Shown here: positions 1,812-9,147 of the stretch, piece by piece
Layout of the letters: the number at the start of each line of letters is the position of its first letter
Numbering within the stretch: the stretch's first letter is position 1
Virus record (IMG/VR): IMGVR_UViG_3300000553_000362
Coordinates: 1 to 22,544 of that record
Reading direction: 5' to 3' (one strand)
Source of the DNA: a virus
Length of the DNA: 22,544 nucleotides
The notes under the pieces: model-generated
The model's database searches: none
The model's input: the letters and a program-made list of their open reading frames with translations, nothing else
Told to the model about the DNA's origin: nothing
Program-made: the position numbers and the translations under genes

Positions 1812-1975
1812 GCGCCGCCGCCCGCATCAAGTTCGAAAACATCCTCGAGCTCGCCAAGTACGCCTTCATGTCCGGGACGCCTGATGGGATGGCCCGGGCC
1901 GAGGAGCACCTAAAGGAAGCCCAGACCATCGTGGCCTTCGAGCGCCAGACCGCAACGGCGGGGGCGCCCTCATGA
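1808..1975 (+). CDS. Small hypothetical protein, 55 aa
   Basis: The ATG overlaps the preceding stop (ATGA), and its own TGA (1973-1975) overlaps the ATG of the primase gene, so it fills the gap exactly. The product begins MSAAARIKFENILELAKYAF, followed by a predicted helix AEEHLKEAQTIVAFERQT. It is mostly alpha-helical with no cysteine. G/C-rich third codon positions and perfect junctions support a real gene. No family recognised. Confidence 0.6.
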   Translation: MSAAARIKFENILELAKYAFMSGTPDGMARAEEHLKEAQTIVAFERQTATAGAPS

Positions 1976-4362
1976 ACCACGCGCTCGTTTGCCCCTACTG
2001 CGACCGCTCGGATGCCATCGGCGCCAAGGACGAGCCCCGGTTCTACCGAGACGGCCGGCTGCTGGCGACCTGCTTCCACGGCCATGAAGGCACCGGCAAG
2101 AAAGTCTTCGACGCGGAGACCGGCGCCAAGGTCCAGAACGCGGACCTCGAGCCCTGGGAGGTTCTCTACCGCCTAGCGGAGCCCAACGGCGCCCGCGGCT
2201 TCGGCGCTGAGTTCCTCGCCCAGCGCTGCGGGGTCTACGTGGTCACCCAGGAGGTGGCCGCACGCGCCGGCTGCCCAGTGCCTAACGAAAAGGACGTGCT
2301 CCGAGCTGAGAAGGACGGCGGGGCGGTCACCATCGCACCCCTCTTCAACGGTCCCAAGATGTCTGGCCTCGAGGCCCGCATCGTGGAGACCGGGCCCAGC
2401 ATCAAGGTCACCAAGTGGACGCGCACCATCGGCCAGGAGGGCGTGTTCATCGCCAACCCTGGCGTCCAGCCACAGGTGGCCATCGTCTTCGAGGGCACCT
2501 GGGACGCCATTGCCGCGGCCTGGGATTGCTTCCAGGAAGACGAGATGGACCGCTACGCCTTCCTGTCCATCAAGGCGGGCACCAGCGCCCAGCTGCTCGG
2601 CGCCGTCCTCAAGGCTCACTTCCCAGGCATCCCGGCCCTGCTCATCACTGACCAGGACAGCTCCGGCAAGGGCGCCCGGCCCCGCATGGCGAAGGCTGGC
2701 GTGGCCTACCCCGCCATCCTGAAGGGCGTGGGCAGCGCGAAGGACTACCGGGACGCGGATCCCAAGCTGCGCCGCGCCGCCCTCCTGGAAGCCATCGAGC
2801 AGGCCCTGCAGGCGCCAGACCCCAGCACGGATTCAGGAGACTCGAAGTTCGCCAGGCGTGCCCTCGAGGGTGCCTACCGCGCCAAGTCCAGCGGCATGCG
2901 GGACCTCGAGGCCTGGCGGTTCGGCCAGCGCTGCGCGGGGATCTGCAAGCCGAACCCCGCCAAGGCCACCGCCTTCGCCGTCCGGGCCAAGTTCAACAAC
3001 CGCCCCGCGGTGCCGGAGGGCCAGCGCGAGTTCAAGGTCTTCATCACCCACCCGGAGATGCGCCGGATCCAGGGGGACTACCCCGACCTGGCCGCGGCGA
3101 TCCTGGCCGGCGCCACCGAATCCCCCATGTCCCCCGAGTGGGCTCCCCCTGTCTTCCTCCCGGAGACCGGTGCGCACTGGACCACCATCCCCAAAGAGGA
3201 CCGGAAGGCCTACGCCACGGCCCACGGCTGGGAACCATGGGACGGCCAGGACATCGGTGTCTTCGTCCAGGAAGACCTGCACGATGTGCTGGAGGCCATC
3301 GGGAACGCCTACCACTACGTGATCATCCCCGGCGCGCCGGCGGCCGAGACCGGGATCCGGGTGGCAGCCGTCGCCTTCGCCACGGCGCTCTGCGGCCTTC
3401 GGGCCCAGGAGCTGGGCCAGTCCGCCAAGCCCACGGGGTTCAACCCGGGGACCTGGTTCTATGGAGGGCCCGCCACCGGGAAAGGCACCGCCGCCAAGAT
3501 CACCGCCGCTGCCGTGAGCGGAGAGACCCGGACCTATGGTTCCCAGCGGTTTGGGGGGGAGAAGGAGACGGGCTGGCTCACGGAGTCCGCACTGCATCTC
3601 CCCATCGTGTTCAAGGACGAGCTGGACCAGTATCTGGACCGCTCCGCCTCGGAGGACCTGAAAGCCTTCCTGGGGGGCGAGGCCCTGCAGCGCCGGAAGG
3701 CCTACGGCATGGACATGACCCTCTACCCCCGGCCAGTGGTCTTCAGCACGAACGAGATCAAGATCAACCCGGAGGACGAGGCCACCAAGGAACGCATCAT
3801 CCTGGTGGAGCTGCAGCCGAACCCCATGGCCTCGAAGTTCCAGCGGAACAACGCCTTCGAGCACTTTCACGAGTGGCTGACCGCCGGCGGGGCCCTACGC
3901 CTCCACCGGGTGACCGTGCACCTTTACGGCGCCTTCCGGCAGCTGCAGATCGGAGACGTGAAGTTCACACGCTCGGCGGTCTTCGATGCGGCGATGCTCC
4001 ACGTCTGCAAGGTCATGGACCTGGACGCCGCGGCCATCATGTCTCCCTCCGAGGCCAACAAGGAGGCCGCCATCCTCCGGGGTGCGCCCTGGTATCAGTC
4101 CATCTCGGACTACGTTCAATACGACTTGCAGGGCTCCCTGGAATTCTCCATGAAGGCCCTGGACCTGTGGGGCATCCGAGCCGAGGACGAGAGCCAGAAG
4201 CGGAAGCTCAGACGCTACCTGGATGGCTTCCGGGCTGCTGCGAAGGAACACGGGGGCGCTCTGACGGTCCTGGGCTATGCCGTGGACATCCCACCCTTCC
4301 ATTCCAATGCCCAGAACACCCTCATCCGCTTCAAAAAGGTGATCCATGCCGAAGCGTCCTGA
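1972..4362 (+). CDS. Bifunctional TOPRIM primase / SF3 (D5/P4-type) replicative helicase
   Basis: A 796-aa replication protein. An N-terminal zinc ribbon has C7-x2-C10 and C34-x-H36-x-H38. A TOPRIM domain at about 168-265 carries the Glu of IVFEGTWDAI (E174) and the D-x-D of LLITDQDSSGKG (D227, D229). The C-terminal half is a superfamily-3 ATPase: Walker A GGPATGKGT (about 498-506), Walker B LPIVFKDELD (544-552), then GGEALQRRK and the sensor-like FSTNEIKIN (about 591-599), ending in KERIILVEL. This is the domain order of phage P4 alpha-like or D5-like initiator primase-helicases, which recognise and unwind an origin and prime synthesis. The iteron region immediately downstream is its natural target (inference). 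The start overlaps the previous gene (ATGA). Confidence 0.9.
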   Translation: MNHALVCPYCDRSDAIGAKDEPRFYRDGRLLATCFHGHEGTGKKVFDAETGAKVQNADLEPWEVLYRLAEPNGARGFGAEFLAQRCGVYVVTQEVAARAGCPVPNEKDVLRAEKDGGAVTIAPLFNGPKMSGLEARIVETGPSIKVTKWTRTIGQEGVFIANPGVQPQVAIVFEGTWDAIAAAWDCFQEDEMDRYAFLSIKAGTSAQLLGAVLKAHFPGIPALLITDQDSSGKGARPRMAKAGVAYPAILKGVGSAKDYRDADPKLRRAALLEAIEQALQAPDPSTDSGDSKFARRALEGAYRAKSSGMRDLEAWRFGQRCAGICKPNPAKATAFAVRAKFNNRPAVPEGQREFKVFITHPEMRRIQGDYPDLAAAILAGATESPMSPEWAPPVFLPETGAHWTTIPKEDRKAYATAHGWEPWDGQDIGVFVQEDLHDVLEAIGNAYHYVIIPGAPAAETGIRVAAVAFATALCGLRAQELGQSAKPTGFNPGTWFYGGPATGKGTAAKITAAAVSGETRTYGSQRFGGEKETGWLTESALHLPIVFKDELDQYLDRSASEDLKAFLGGEALQRRKAYGMDMTLYPRPVVFSTNEIKINPEDEATKERIILVELQPNPMASKFQRNNAFEHFHEWLTAGGALRLHRVTVHLYGAFRQLQIGDVKFTRSAVFDAAMLHVCKVMDLDAAAIMSPSEANKEAAILRGAPWYQSISDYVQYDLQGSLEFSMKALDLWGIRAEDESQKRKLRRYLDGFRAAAKEHGGALTVLGYAVDIPPFHSNAQNTLIRFKKVIHAEAS

Positions 4363-4438
4363 TGTCCGTGTCCGGGGTGGTGTCCGGATTTTTCCGTTGA
4401 AATCATTGACAACGGACACCCGGACACCGCGGACATCT

Positions 4439-4462
4439 CGCGCGCGCGCGTGTGTATGTATG
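4439..4462. other. 24-bp alternating pyrimidine-purine tract (Z-DNA-prone)
   Basis: Six CG dinucleotides (4439-4450) run directly into TGTGTATGTATG (4451-4462), giving 24 bases of unbroken pyrimidine-purine alternation. Such tracts favour left-handed DNA under negative supercoiling. It lies between the first and second groups of the iteron array. Confidence 0.6.
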
Positions 4463-4547
4463 AAGAGACCCCCCATAGACACTCTCTCTTATAAAAACCC
4501 AACCCCCTTACCCCCCTTAAGTGATGTCCGTTTGTCCGTCCCTTACT

Positions 4548-4557
4548 CCCACGTGGG
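4548..4557. repeat. 10-bp perfect palindrome in the iteron region
   Basis: CCCACGTGGG lies between the two-forward and two-reverse iterons, at the centre of that potential hairpin. It may be a protein-binding site or simply part of the dyad. Confidence 0.45.
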
Positions 4558-4656
4558 TTTGACCCCGGACATACATCCGGACACGGCTATAGGGCGATGT
4601 CCGTTTGTAGCAATCATGCGGGTTCTAGCCCGGACATCCATAGATTCGAGGTTCGC

Positions 4657-5262
4657 ATGAGCCGCATGGCCCAGCAGCACACTCAGCAGCAGCACCAGCA
4701 CATCCCCTTCGGCATCGGCGTGGTCCTCGACGGCCGCCCCAAGCGCAAGGGCCCCAAGCCAGAGGCCAAGCTCCAGAAGGCCCTCATCGAATATCTCAAG
4801 CTCCTACCTTGGGTCGCCAAGGTGAACCGGCATAACGTGGGCCAGGCCATGATGGGCGCTCGACCAGGGTTTGCAGGCCGACCGGTCTACTTCAGCGAGC
4901 GGGGCCACTCGGACCTCAGCATCGAGGTTCGCAATGACCCTCGGGTGATCTGGATCGAAACCAAGGCGCCCGGCGCCAGGCCCTCTGGGCGGGCTCAGGC
5001 GGCCCACTGGGAGGAGCAGGAGGGGTTCCTTGCCCGGAAGCGTGCCTCAGGCCATCCAGCGTTCTTCTGCAGCGCTGGGGAGATCCTCCGCACCGAACTG
5101 ACCCGGGCCGGTCTCCCGGCGCCCTCAGTGGCCCAGCTGGCTGCCGAGATGGCCTCCAGGAAGGTCCACCCCTCCACCATCGCCGCCTTCACCCGCCGGA
5201 TGCGCCTGGCCTTCTTTGAGGTGCCCTTAGCGAAGAAGCCGACTGCCAAGGCGGTCGCATGA
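4657..5262 (+). CDS. VRR-NUC domain nuclease
   Basis: A 201-aa protein. The ATG at 4657 is chosen because GAGG (4648-4651) lies 5 nt upstream; the frame is open to an ATG at 4597, but that start lies inside the iteron array. Residues about 36-128 match the VRR-NUC (PD-(D/E)xK) fold: helix EAKLQKALIEYLKLL, then GHSDL (D86), WIETKAP (E101, K103) and SGRAQ (Q114), with a hydrophobic strand PAFFC. An N-terminal Gln/His-rich stretch (6-15) and a C-terminal 65-residue helical extension flank it. VRR-NUC proteins in phages act as stand-alone nucleases of replication, recombination or junction processing. The role here is inferred from the motif and its place after the replication gene. Confidence 0.8.
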   Translation: MSRMAQQHTQQQHQHIPFGIGVVLDGRPKRKGPKPEAKLQKALIEYLKLLPWVAKVNRHNVGQAMMGARPGFAGRPVYFSERGHSDLSIEVRNDPRVIWIETKAPGARPSGRAQAAHWEEQEGFLARKRASGHPAFFCSAGEILRTELTRAGLPAPSVAQLAAEMASRKVHPSTIAAFTRRMRLAFFEVPLAKKPTAKAVA

Positions 5263-5521: not shown

Positions 5522-5835
5522 GCGGCACAGTGCCGAAAAGTGCCGTAAAACGTCAGCAGCCCAAGGGGGGCAGCCGGAAAGGCAAGCCGAACAAAGTCAC
5601 CAAAGCACTGAAAGACATGATCTTGGGCGCTCTGGATGACGCTGGGGGTCAGGAATACCTCAAGCGCCAGGCGCGGAAGCGGAACCCGGCCCCGTTCATG
5701 GCACTGGTCGGGAAGGTTCTCCCCATGCAGATCACGGGCGAGGACGGCGGGCCCCTGCAGATCCAGCAGATCAAGGCCATGAGCGATGAGCAGCTGAAGG
5801 CCCTGATTCAGAAGATTGCTGGGGTCGCCAAGTGA
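5518..5835 (+). CDS. Terminase small subunit (putative)
   Basis: A 105-aa protein directly before the large terminase gene. The N-terminus is basic (SAVKRQQPKGGSRKGKPNKV), followed by helices KALKDMILGALDDAGGQEYL and RKRNPAPFMALVGKVLPMQI. This is the layout of small-terminase-like proteins with a GxPKG..NK lead-in. The C-terminus (SDEQLKALIQKIAGVAK) is helical. It would recognise pac or cos DNA and deliver it to TerL. It is short for a P22-type small subunit (about 160 aa) and has no clear helix-turn-helix, so the call depends on gene position. The start overlaps the previous stop (ATGA); the upstream open frame to 5344 overlaps other genes and is not used. Confidence 0.6.
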   Translation: MSGTVPKSAVKRQQPKGGSRKGKPNKVTKALKDMILGALDDAGGQEYLKRQARKRNPAPFMALVGKVLPMQITGEDGGPLQIQQIKAMSDEQLKALIQKIAGVAK

Positions 5836-8329: not shown

Positions 8330-8568
8330 CGCGCCCCCGGCGTAAGCCTTACACGGCGGCCGGCATCAAGCGCGTTCCCTGTGCTCGGTGCGGGGCTCCT
8401 GGGGTTCACCAGTGGCAAATTTGCTCGGATGGGAACCAGTTCAGGGCCCTCTGTGTGGCCTGTGACATCGCCCTGAACCGCCTGGTGCTCAAGTGGGTGG
8501 GTTTCCCTGACTGGCGAGCGAAAGCAGCCGCCTATGCGGAGAAATCGCGCCGTCCGGACACCAAATAA
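8326..8568 (+). CDS. Zinc-ribbon protein of unknown function, 80 aa
   Basis: Starts at GTG in a GTGA overlap. The cysteine pattern is C19-x2-C22, H28, C33 and C43-x2-C46 (PCARCGAPGVHQWQIC, then LCVACD), suggesting a two-part zinc site. It is followed by a helix (IALNRLVLKWVGFPDW) and a basic end. The pattern looks like a conserved phage protein family, but I know no function for it. It is the last gene before a 180-bp non-coding spacer. Confidence 0.65.
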   Translation: MTRPRRKPYTAAGIKRVPCARCGAPGVHQWQICSDGNQFRALCVACDIALNRLVLKWVGFPDWRAKAAAYAEKSRRPDTK

Positions 8569-8748: not shown

Positions 8749-9147
8749 GTGAATCTCAACTTCGAGATCTCCACCGGCACCATTACCCAGGATGACGGGA
8801 CGGTCATCACAGACCAGGCCTTCGCCGGGAATGACTCGCGGCCAGAGGTGAACCCCGAGCACATCCAGGGCCGGAACAACCCCGAGCACTGCGACCTGCA
8901 CAACATCGGGCCGCTGCCGCCCGGAGTCTACAAATTTGGGCCGTGGCACACGCACCCGGGGCTTGGCCCCCACTGCGCTGCGCTGACTCAGATCGAAGGC
9001 GAGACCTACGGGCGCTCTGCGTTCTACATGCACGGCGCCTCATCCACTGACCCGCTCAACTCCTCTGAAGGCTGCGTGGTGGTGCCCCATGATCCGCGCT
9101 GCGCCATTGAGGCCATGGATCCTGACACGCTGACGGTGACGGAATGA
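8749..9147 (+). CDS. Tlde1/DUF2778-like L,D-transpeptidase-fold peptidoglycan enzyme, probable endolysin
   Basis: A 132-aa protein from GTG 8749, with AGGTG at 8739-8743. Two hallmarks of the Tlde1 (DUF2778) family are visible: a GPLPPGVYKFGP turn (about 54-65) and the catalytic block FYMHGASSTD (His95) with SSEGC (Cys109), an L,D-transpeptidase-like His/Cys pair. Members act on peptidoglycan stem peptides as L,D-carboxypeptidases or by exchange; the best studied are type VI secretion toxins. No signal peptide is seen, so release would need a holin. No lysozyme, amidase or transglycosylase gene lies nearby, and the gene heads a block with holin and spanin candidates. I infer it is this phage's lysis enzyme; a virion-associated or superinfection role is possible. 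Confidence 0.7.
   Translation: MNLNFEISTGTITQDDGTVITDQAFAGNDSRPEVNPEHIQGRNNPEHCDLHNIGPLPPGVYKFGPWHTHPGLGPHCAALTQIEGETYGRSAFYMHGASSTDPLNSSEGCVVVPHDPRCAIEAMDPDTLTVTE

Follow-up and report, generated by a model that had tools for sequence, protein, structure and literature searches.

The short repeats that directly follow a primase-helicase gene in the 22,544-nucleotide stretch analysed here (IMG/VR virus record IMGVR_UViG_3300000553_000362, positions 1 to 22,544; hereafter the window) are best read, by analogy, as a replication origin of the kind found in SaPI and PICI elements and in phage Sfi21, in which the initiator gene is followed immediately by an iteron origin. In the full model, the array would be the origin and the 796-aa product of the upstream gene its initiator, opening would involve two helicase hexamers, and a pyrimidine-purine tract between the two halves of the array would assist; we put the probability of this model at roughly 0.85. 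What appeared as an odd repeat cluster can thus be predicted to be a phage origin, and many other viral contigs show much the same architecture.

Layout of the array and its conservation

Twelve exact copies of TGTCCG/CGGACA lie between positions 4363 and 4636 in the order +++---++--+-, exactly as counted in the first-pass annotation (Table 1). The arrangement described there, groups of three, two and one forward sites each answered by as many reverse sites, is correct as an order, but it is better read as six sites, an 89-bp gap (4436-4524) between the sixth and the seventh iteron, and six further sites, which matches the norm of six sites per side in the phage clade described below. Each half contains three inward and three outward sites, a mixed orientation that is unusual.

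Table 1. Features of the array region and its flanking genes (window coordinates).
Feature	Position	Strand	Remarks
796-aa primase-helicase, proposed initiator	1972..4362	+	Zinc ribbon, Toprim and SF3 motifs in order
Left half-array, six TGTCCG iterons	4363..4435		+ 4363, 4369, 4381; - 4413, 4421, 4430; kept in L003
Perfect 24-bp alternating pyrimidine-purine (YR) tract, CGCGCGCGCGCGTGTGTATGTATG	4439..4462		Z-DNA-prone
AT-richer, G-poor rest of gap	4463..4524		Presumed melting region
Right half-array, six TGTCCG iterons	4525..4636		+ 4525, 4533; - 4566, 4578; + 4598; - 4631
201-aa probable VRR-NUC-type nuclease	4657..5262	+	PHROG 93 endonuclease, E=4.3e-5; directly after array

The whole window holds 24 of these hexamers, compared with about 15 expected from shuffles, which corresponds to one per ~1.5 kb here and not to one per 2 kb as first assumed. 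The remaining 12 copies are scattered singletons across the other 22 kb; two that had been cited at 8565 and 18211 are real but start at 8555 and 18212. Since the shuffles give about 15 hexamers in all and every outside copy is single, the 22.5-kb window contains no second TGTCCG cluster, as the hexamer count proposed earlier as a check now shows. Any other hexamer reaches at most six copies per 280 bp of the window, and the best hexamer cluster in 50 third-order Markov simulations had eight copies.

The array fits tightly between its neighbouring genes. The TGA stop codon of the helicase gene (4360-4362) abuts the first TGTCCG, and the last iteron ends 20 bp 5' of the start of the nuclease gene. 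This start is preceded by GAGG, as judged by eye, and with it the array stays non-coding, as originally claimed. A possible in-frame ATG further upstream in the nuclease gene (4597) would overlap the last two iterons and looks non-functional, as does a 104-aa open reading frame that runs through the array (4346-4660).

The gap itself is composed of two unequal parts. The first-pass description of the array did not include the YR tract, which is the longest in the window (the runner-up has 12 bp) and whose length was reached in none of 300 shuffles. Without the tract, the gap has a GC content of 48% vs 65% for the window. Position 4451 is the start of the 60-mer with the lowest GC content in the window (43%), although the next lowest value, outside the array, is close to it (45%).

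Only one IMG/VR contig (loci L003, L055, L222, and L223) encodes a close relative of the 796-aa protein; none was found in the phage collection searched. The L003 helicase is 83% identical over the part available, and the array recurs 3' of it at the same place, the outcome of a comparison with homologous primase-helicase genes that the first-pass annotation had recommended. In L003, each of the twelve sites can be recognised in its position, none with more than one mismatch, and this includes the right half-array. Between L003 and the window, 68 of the 72 iteron bases are identical (94%), vs 115 of the 201 spacer bases (57%; Fisher p=3e-10). The L003 YR tract is also 24 bp long and differs from that of the window at seven positions, all of them transitions, whereas the rest of the array region has accumulated 42 transitions and 41 transversions. 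Because every substitution in the tract preserves the alternation, selection appears, from this pair of sequences, to act on the alternating pattern.

Recurrence of the layout behind helicase genes

Viral contigs were surveyed from two directions. In an array-first pattern scan with a scrambled hexamer as control, at least eight copies in 300 bp were present in 64 of 100 TGTCCG stretches vs 1 of 116 scrambled-hexamer stretches. A helicase-primase gene lies just 5' of many of these TGTCCG arrays, with D5_N/DUF5906 SF3 helicases in one group and PrimPol plus RecA-like (AAA_25) helicases in another; since the loci were retrieved via the hexamer, they establish an association and not its frequency. 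The second group (L031:6643-6751, L012, L033, L083, and many others) carries a compact TGTCCG array of ~108 bp in the order ++-++---, the first site of which abuts the stop codon of the PrimPol plus AAA_25 (RepA-like, non-SF3) helicase gene; no long YR tract is evident there by eye. That TGTCCG also follows a helicase of unrelated type points to convergence or to a DNA-binding domain common to both types.

The helicase-first search was blind to arrays, although the alignment used as query was built from phages with TGTCCG arrays, and yielded 46 non-redundant SF3/D5 viral loci of roughly at least 35% identity. In forty of these, the 600 bp downstream of the stop codon contain a hexamer repeated at least seven times, as do 22 of 1558 background windows. 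A YR tract of 15 bp or more occurs within the first 450 bp of 38 loci and in 34 of 5069 background windows. Both sets of background windows were drawn from the same loci, are mostly coding, and do not represent matched intergenic controls. In 40 of the 46, the tract exceeds that in every other 450-bp window of the locus. The iteron sets of the 39 loci with both features flank the tract and mostly face it, and the median gap between them is 89 bp, as in the window. Outside the tract, this gap has a GC content of 33% vs 55% for the locus (p=2.6e-8, a value that overstates independence because the loci are related), and the tract itself 63%. The iterons constitute a graded family (TGTCCGGG, GGTCCGGG, GGTCAGGG, GGTCAAGG, GTCCAGGT), and those in the 46-locus set are often related to TGTCCGGG.

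A close match to the window comes from a clade of phages with Toprim plus D5/DUF5906 proteins (L270-L324), in which two iteron sets likewise enclose a gap of ~89 bp that combines AT-rich DNA with a long YR tract. Its top clade shares the TGTCCG iteron and has a median of six sites on the left and six on the right. The window was found independently and encodes a remote helicase, yet it agrees with this clade in its iteron core, the number of sites per side, the length and AT-richness of the gap, and the tract. What characterises the clade, namely at least 12 bp of YR alternation within an iteron gap of ~80-110 bp 3' of an SF3 helicase, is present here as 24 bp in 89 bp. It differs in site orientation: the halves of the clade arrays are mostly inward-facing (+++-++ followed by --+---), with five inward sites and one outward site as the commonest layout per half, whereas those of the window are mixed. 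L320 (helicase end at 4512) has the longest tract, 45 bp of perfect YR alternation inside the iteron gap.

Phage loci with less than 30% identity (L325-L349) are mostly without long tracts, and several have AT-rich TATATA runs instead; the tract thus characterises only some members of the SF3 family. Among the Desulfobacterota genomes sampled, several DUF5906 genes (L242, L256, L257, L258, L261, and L267) are directly followed by YR tracts of 20-38 bp, with iteron counts mostly near background except at L242. At four of these loci (L267, L256, L257, and L258), perfect tracts of 26-38 bp lie within ~20-50 bp after D5_N/DUF5906 genes and hexamer iterons are weak or absent; the iterons there may be longer or degenerate. 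A genome scan with the class A helicases gave matches in two Desulfuromonadales metagenome-assembled genomes only.

Several named phages also carry iterons just 3' of a primase-helicase gene: Mycobacterium phage Taquito (L231:2800-3100; nine copies of ATGTCCCC), Lactobacillus phage CL2 (L232:2490-3030; seven copies of TGTGACGGAT), Idiomarinaceae phage 1N2-2 (L239:2530-2850; eleven copies of TGTACC), and Streptococcus phage Javan465 (L226:2700-3150; six copies of GGTAAC). These sites are likely origins, although the stretches fetched contain no such annotation. No clear array was seen at this place in the phages Heather, e270.1, 13VV501A, Adumb2043, Pondi, GB2A, 1.030.O, Carrot, and R9Y2, which encode an SF3 or RepA-like helicase.

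Other functions considered for the array

The alternative that fares best, while still improbable, is an accessory cis site resembling crr of phage P4, which the primase-helicase would bind and replication would require while the true start lies elsewhere. The P4 alpha gene likewise encodes a primase-helicase fusion and is followed, after a terminator, by the cis-required crr with its mixed-orientation iterons, the separate P4 ori, with its type 1 repeats, being ~4.5 kb away; furthermore, the window is a fragment, so that there could be another array beyond its ends. However, the 22.5 kb at hand contain no second TGTCCG cluster, and the array has neither the two 120-bp direct repeats of crr (the longest repeated words detected within it are 12-mers) nor its GGTGAACA-type iterons. 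The YR tract of crr measures only 7 bp vs 24 bp here, and in Sfi21 and the PICI elements the site in this position is the origin itself. GC skew, which had also been proposed as a check, shows no switch at the array but is uninformative on this 22.5-kb fragment.

The genes to the right of the array bring a packaging function into consideration. The window encodes a large terminase (start at 5832), portal, scaffold, and major head protein; it therefore represents part of a phage with its own structural set. A 132-aa protein with a Pfam Tlde1 match (8749-9147; E=1.5e-8) is encoded by this phage in addition to its structural gene block. A pac or cos site with boxes for the small terminase subunit would be consistent with the distance of ~1.2 kb between the array and the large terminase gene, but we regard it as very unlikely: among the 46 loci, the array tracks the helicase (3' of it in 40), whereas the gene that comes next differs between loci (VRR-NUC, minor tail/neck protein, or unknown), with Pfam VRR_NUC found in the same-place gene of L003 and of Lactobacillus phage CL2. 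Moreover, the long tracts also occur 3' of DUF5906 genes in bacterial genomes, at one locus near a serine recombinase.

The idea that the repeats are operators bound by a repressor or regulator of the phage deserves about as little credence. The repeats are indeed short, inverted, and intergenic, and an HTH repressor-like gene is located at 202-840, but TGTCCG is absent from the vicinity of this gene and of its divergent neighbour (the copy least distant from them lies at 1869), two sets of six sites around a gap with AT-rich DNA and a YR tract would be an unusual operator layout, and the same layout recurs behind SF3 helicases. Autoregulation of the initiator via the array would be compatible with the origin reading as well.

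Least probable of all is that nested hairpins in a structured RNA or cruciform form the functional unit. In the fold check proposed at the outset, the array of the window does fold far better than shuffles (DNA z -5.7, RNA z -5.2), but the best fold of L003 is different and much weaker (z -2.5) despite the kept iterons, the left-arm changes of its module 1 face an unchanged right arm and are uncompensated, and inverted copies of any binding site yield such folds automatically. As the iterons are kept in L003 and the hairpins are not, the conserved unit is the site as duplex DNA. Of the first-pass suggestion of an origin made of nested hairpins that the Toprim-SF3 protein recognises, the hairpins are thus given up. 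An iteron array of origin type that belongs with the upstream gene is supported by the recurrence of this location behind SF3 helicases of many phages, and work on SaPI Rep and Cch2 supplies the mechanism.

The proposed initiator and related origins

The 796-aa protein starts with a CHC2-like zinc ribbon (from C7), followed by Toprim motifs (EG..D at ~175 and DQD at ~227) and SF3 motifs (Walker A GGPATGKGT at 498, Walker B IVFKDEL at 545, and motif C VVFSTN at 589). No match emerged when profiles were compared using the narrow class A alignment, whereas hhalign against 30 diverse D5/DUF5906 helicases matched residues 494-615, the SF3 core alone (E=4.4e-5, probability 69%). PHROG 1156 DNA primase also matches the protein (E=5.6e-5), and a Pfam VapE-like match (0.0014) falls under the cut-off. 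A PDB sequence search with the window protein gave no match, and an AlphaFold model from a two-row alignment was discarded (pLDDT 31). Judged by sequence, the putative initiator appears only remotely similar to the well-matched D5 clade. Members of that clade end in Pox_D5/RFX winged-helix matches, which makes this C-terminal part a plausible candidate for their iteron reader; in the 796-aa protein, such a domain is hypothetical. Iteron distance correlates about equally with helicase C-terminal and core identity (Spearman -0.46 and -0.47), so that these correlations do not single out the iteron-binding domain.

Based on the parallels with SaPI Rep and Cch2, the PICI elements, and Sfi21, we propose that the Toprim-SF3 protein binds both sets of six sites, melts the gap, and loads there. 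It would recognise TGTCCG as duplex DNA, probably via its C-terminal domain, and the six sites on each side of the gap would position two SF3 hexamers; the site number is consistent with two hexameric helicases. Together, these would melt the AT-richer stretch, load on both strands, and travel outwards, while the Toprim half primes. The YR tract may absorb negative supercoiling and so aid opening, either through flexible YR steps or through a flip to Z-DNA with junction opening beside the AT-rich stretch. A more specific proposal for SF3-helicase phage origins, that a GC-rich YR tract, conserved in its pattern and not in its sequence, acts as a dedicated element sensitive to supercoiling, flips to left-handed Z-DNA beside an AT-rich stretch, and gates opening between two six-site landing pads for the hexamers, is tentative, and we consider it more doubtful than the model as a whole.

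An iteron origin of this type is already known. Searches of open-licence PMC papers turned up no description of a conserved, GC-rich tract prone to Z-DNA, of conservation at the level of its pattern, or of six sites on either side of an 89-bp gap, and nothing relevant on iterons combined with Z-DNA; the novelty of these features is provisional, as subscription papers, such as those on the SaPIbov1 origin, lie outside this scope. In a DNA unwinding element, one would not expect a GC-rich tract within a gap that is otherwise AT-rich, and its presence makes a role of Z-DNA at prokaryotic origins directly testable. The layout also provides a rule for finding origins: directly 3' of an SF3 primase-helicase gene, two groups of about six iterons each should enclose a gap of ~89 bp in which AT-rich DNA accompanies a long YR tract.

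Among known systems, the SaPI/PICI origins offer one of the closest parallels. PICI origins lie 3' of the initiator gene and consist of two sets of iterons that flank an AT-rich region which may melt (PMC6092414). As in these elements, the window has its site directly 3' of a primase/helicase-type initiator gene (the first iteron follows the stop codon ending at 4362), short iteron sets on both sides of an AT-rich region (six each around 4436-4524), and an initiator of the SF3/D5 kind (motifs in order, with the hhalign match given above). It differs in being a phage with terminase, portal, scaffold, and capsid genes, while a PICI is a satellite that lacks a structural gene set and depends on a phage, and in its 24-bp GC-rich YR tract, of which the available text makes no mention for SaPI/PICI origins.

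A related mechanism is described for SaPI Rep and SCCmec Cch2, whose C-terminal domain binds iterons directly downstream of their own gene; binding by Cch2 is unaffected by removal of the inverted repeats and abolished by removal of the direct repeats (PMC7581432). Like the window, SCCmec combines a D5-type initiator helicase with short direct repeats immediately downstream of its gene, but its origin has three 5-nt iterons and no array of six sites on each side (PMC7581432). Among phages, Streptococcus thermophilus phage Sfi21 (NC_000872) has an annotated, non-coding origin of 302 bp directly 3' of a putative primase gene, with AGTAAC repeats around an AT-rich stretch. It shares this arrangement with the window and differs in its AT-rich genome, its iteron, and its tract, which consists of only 9 bp (ATATATATA).
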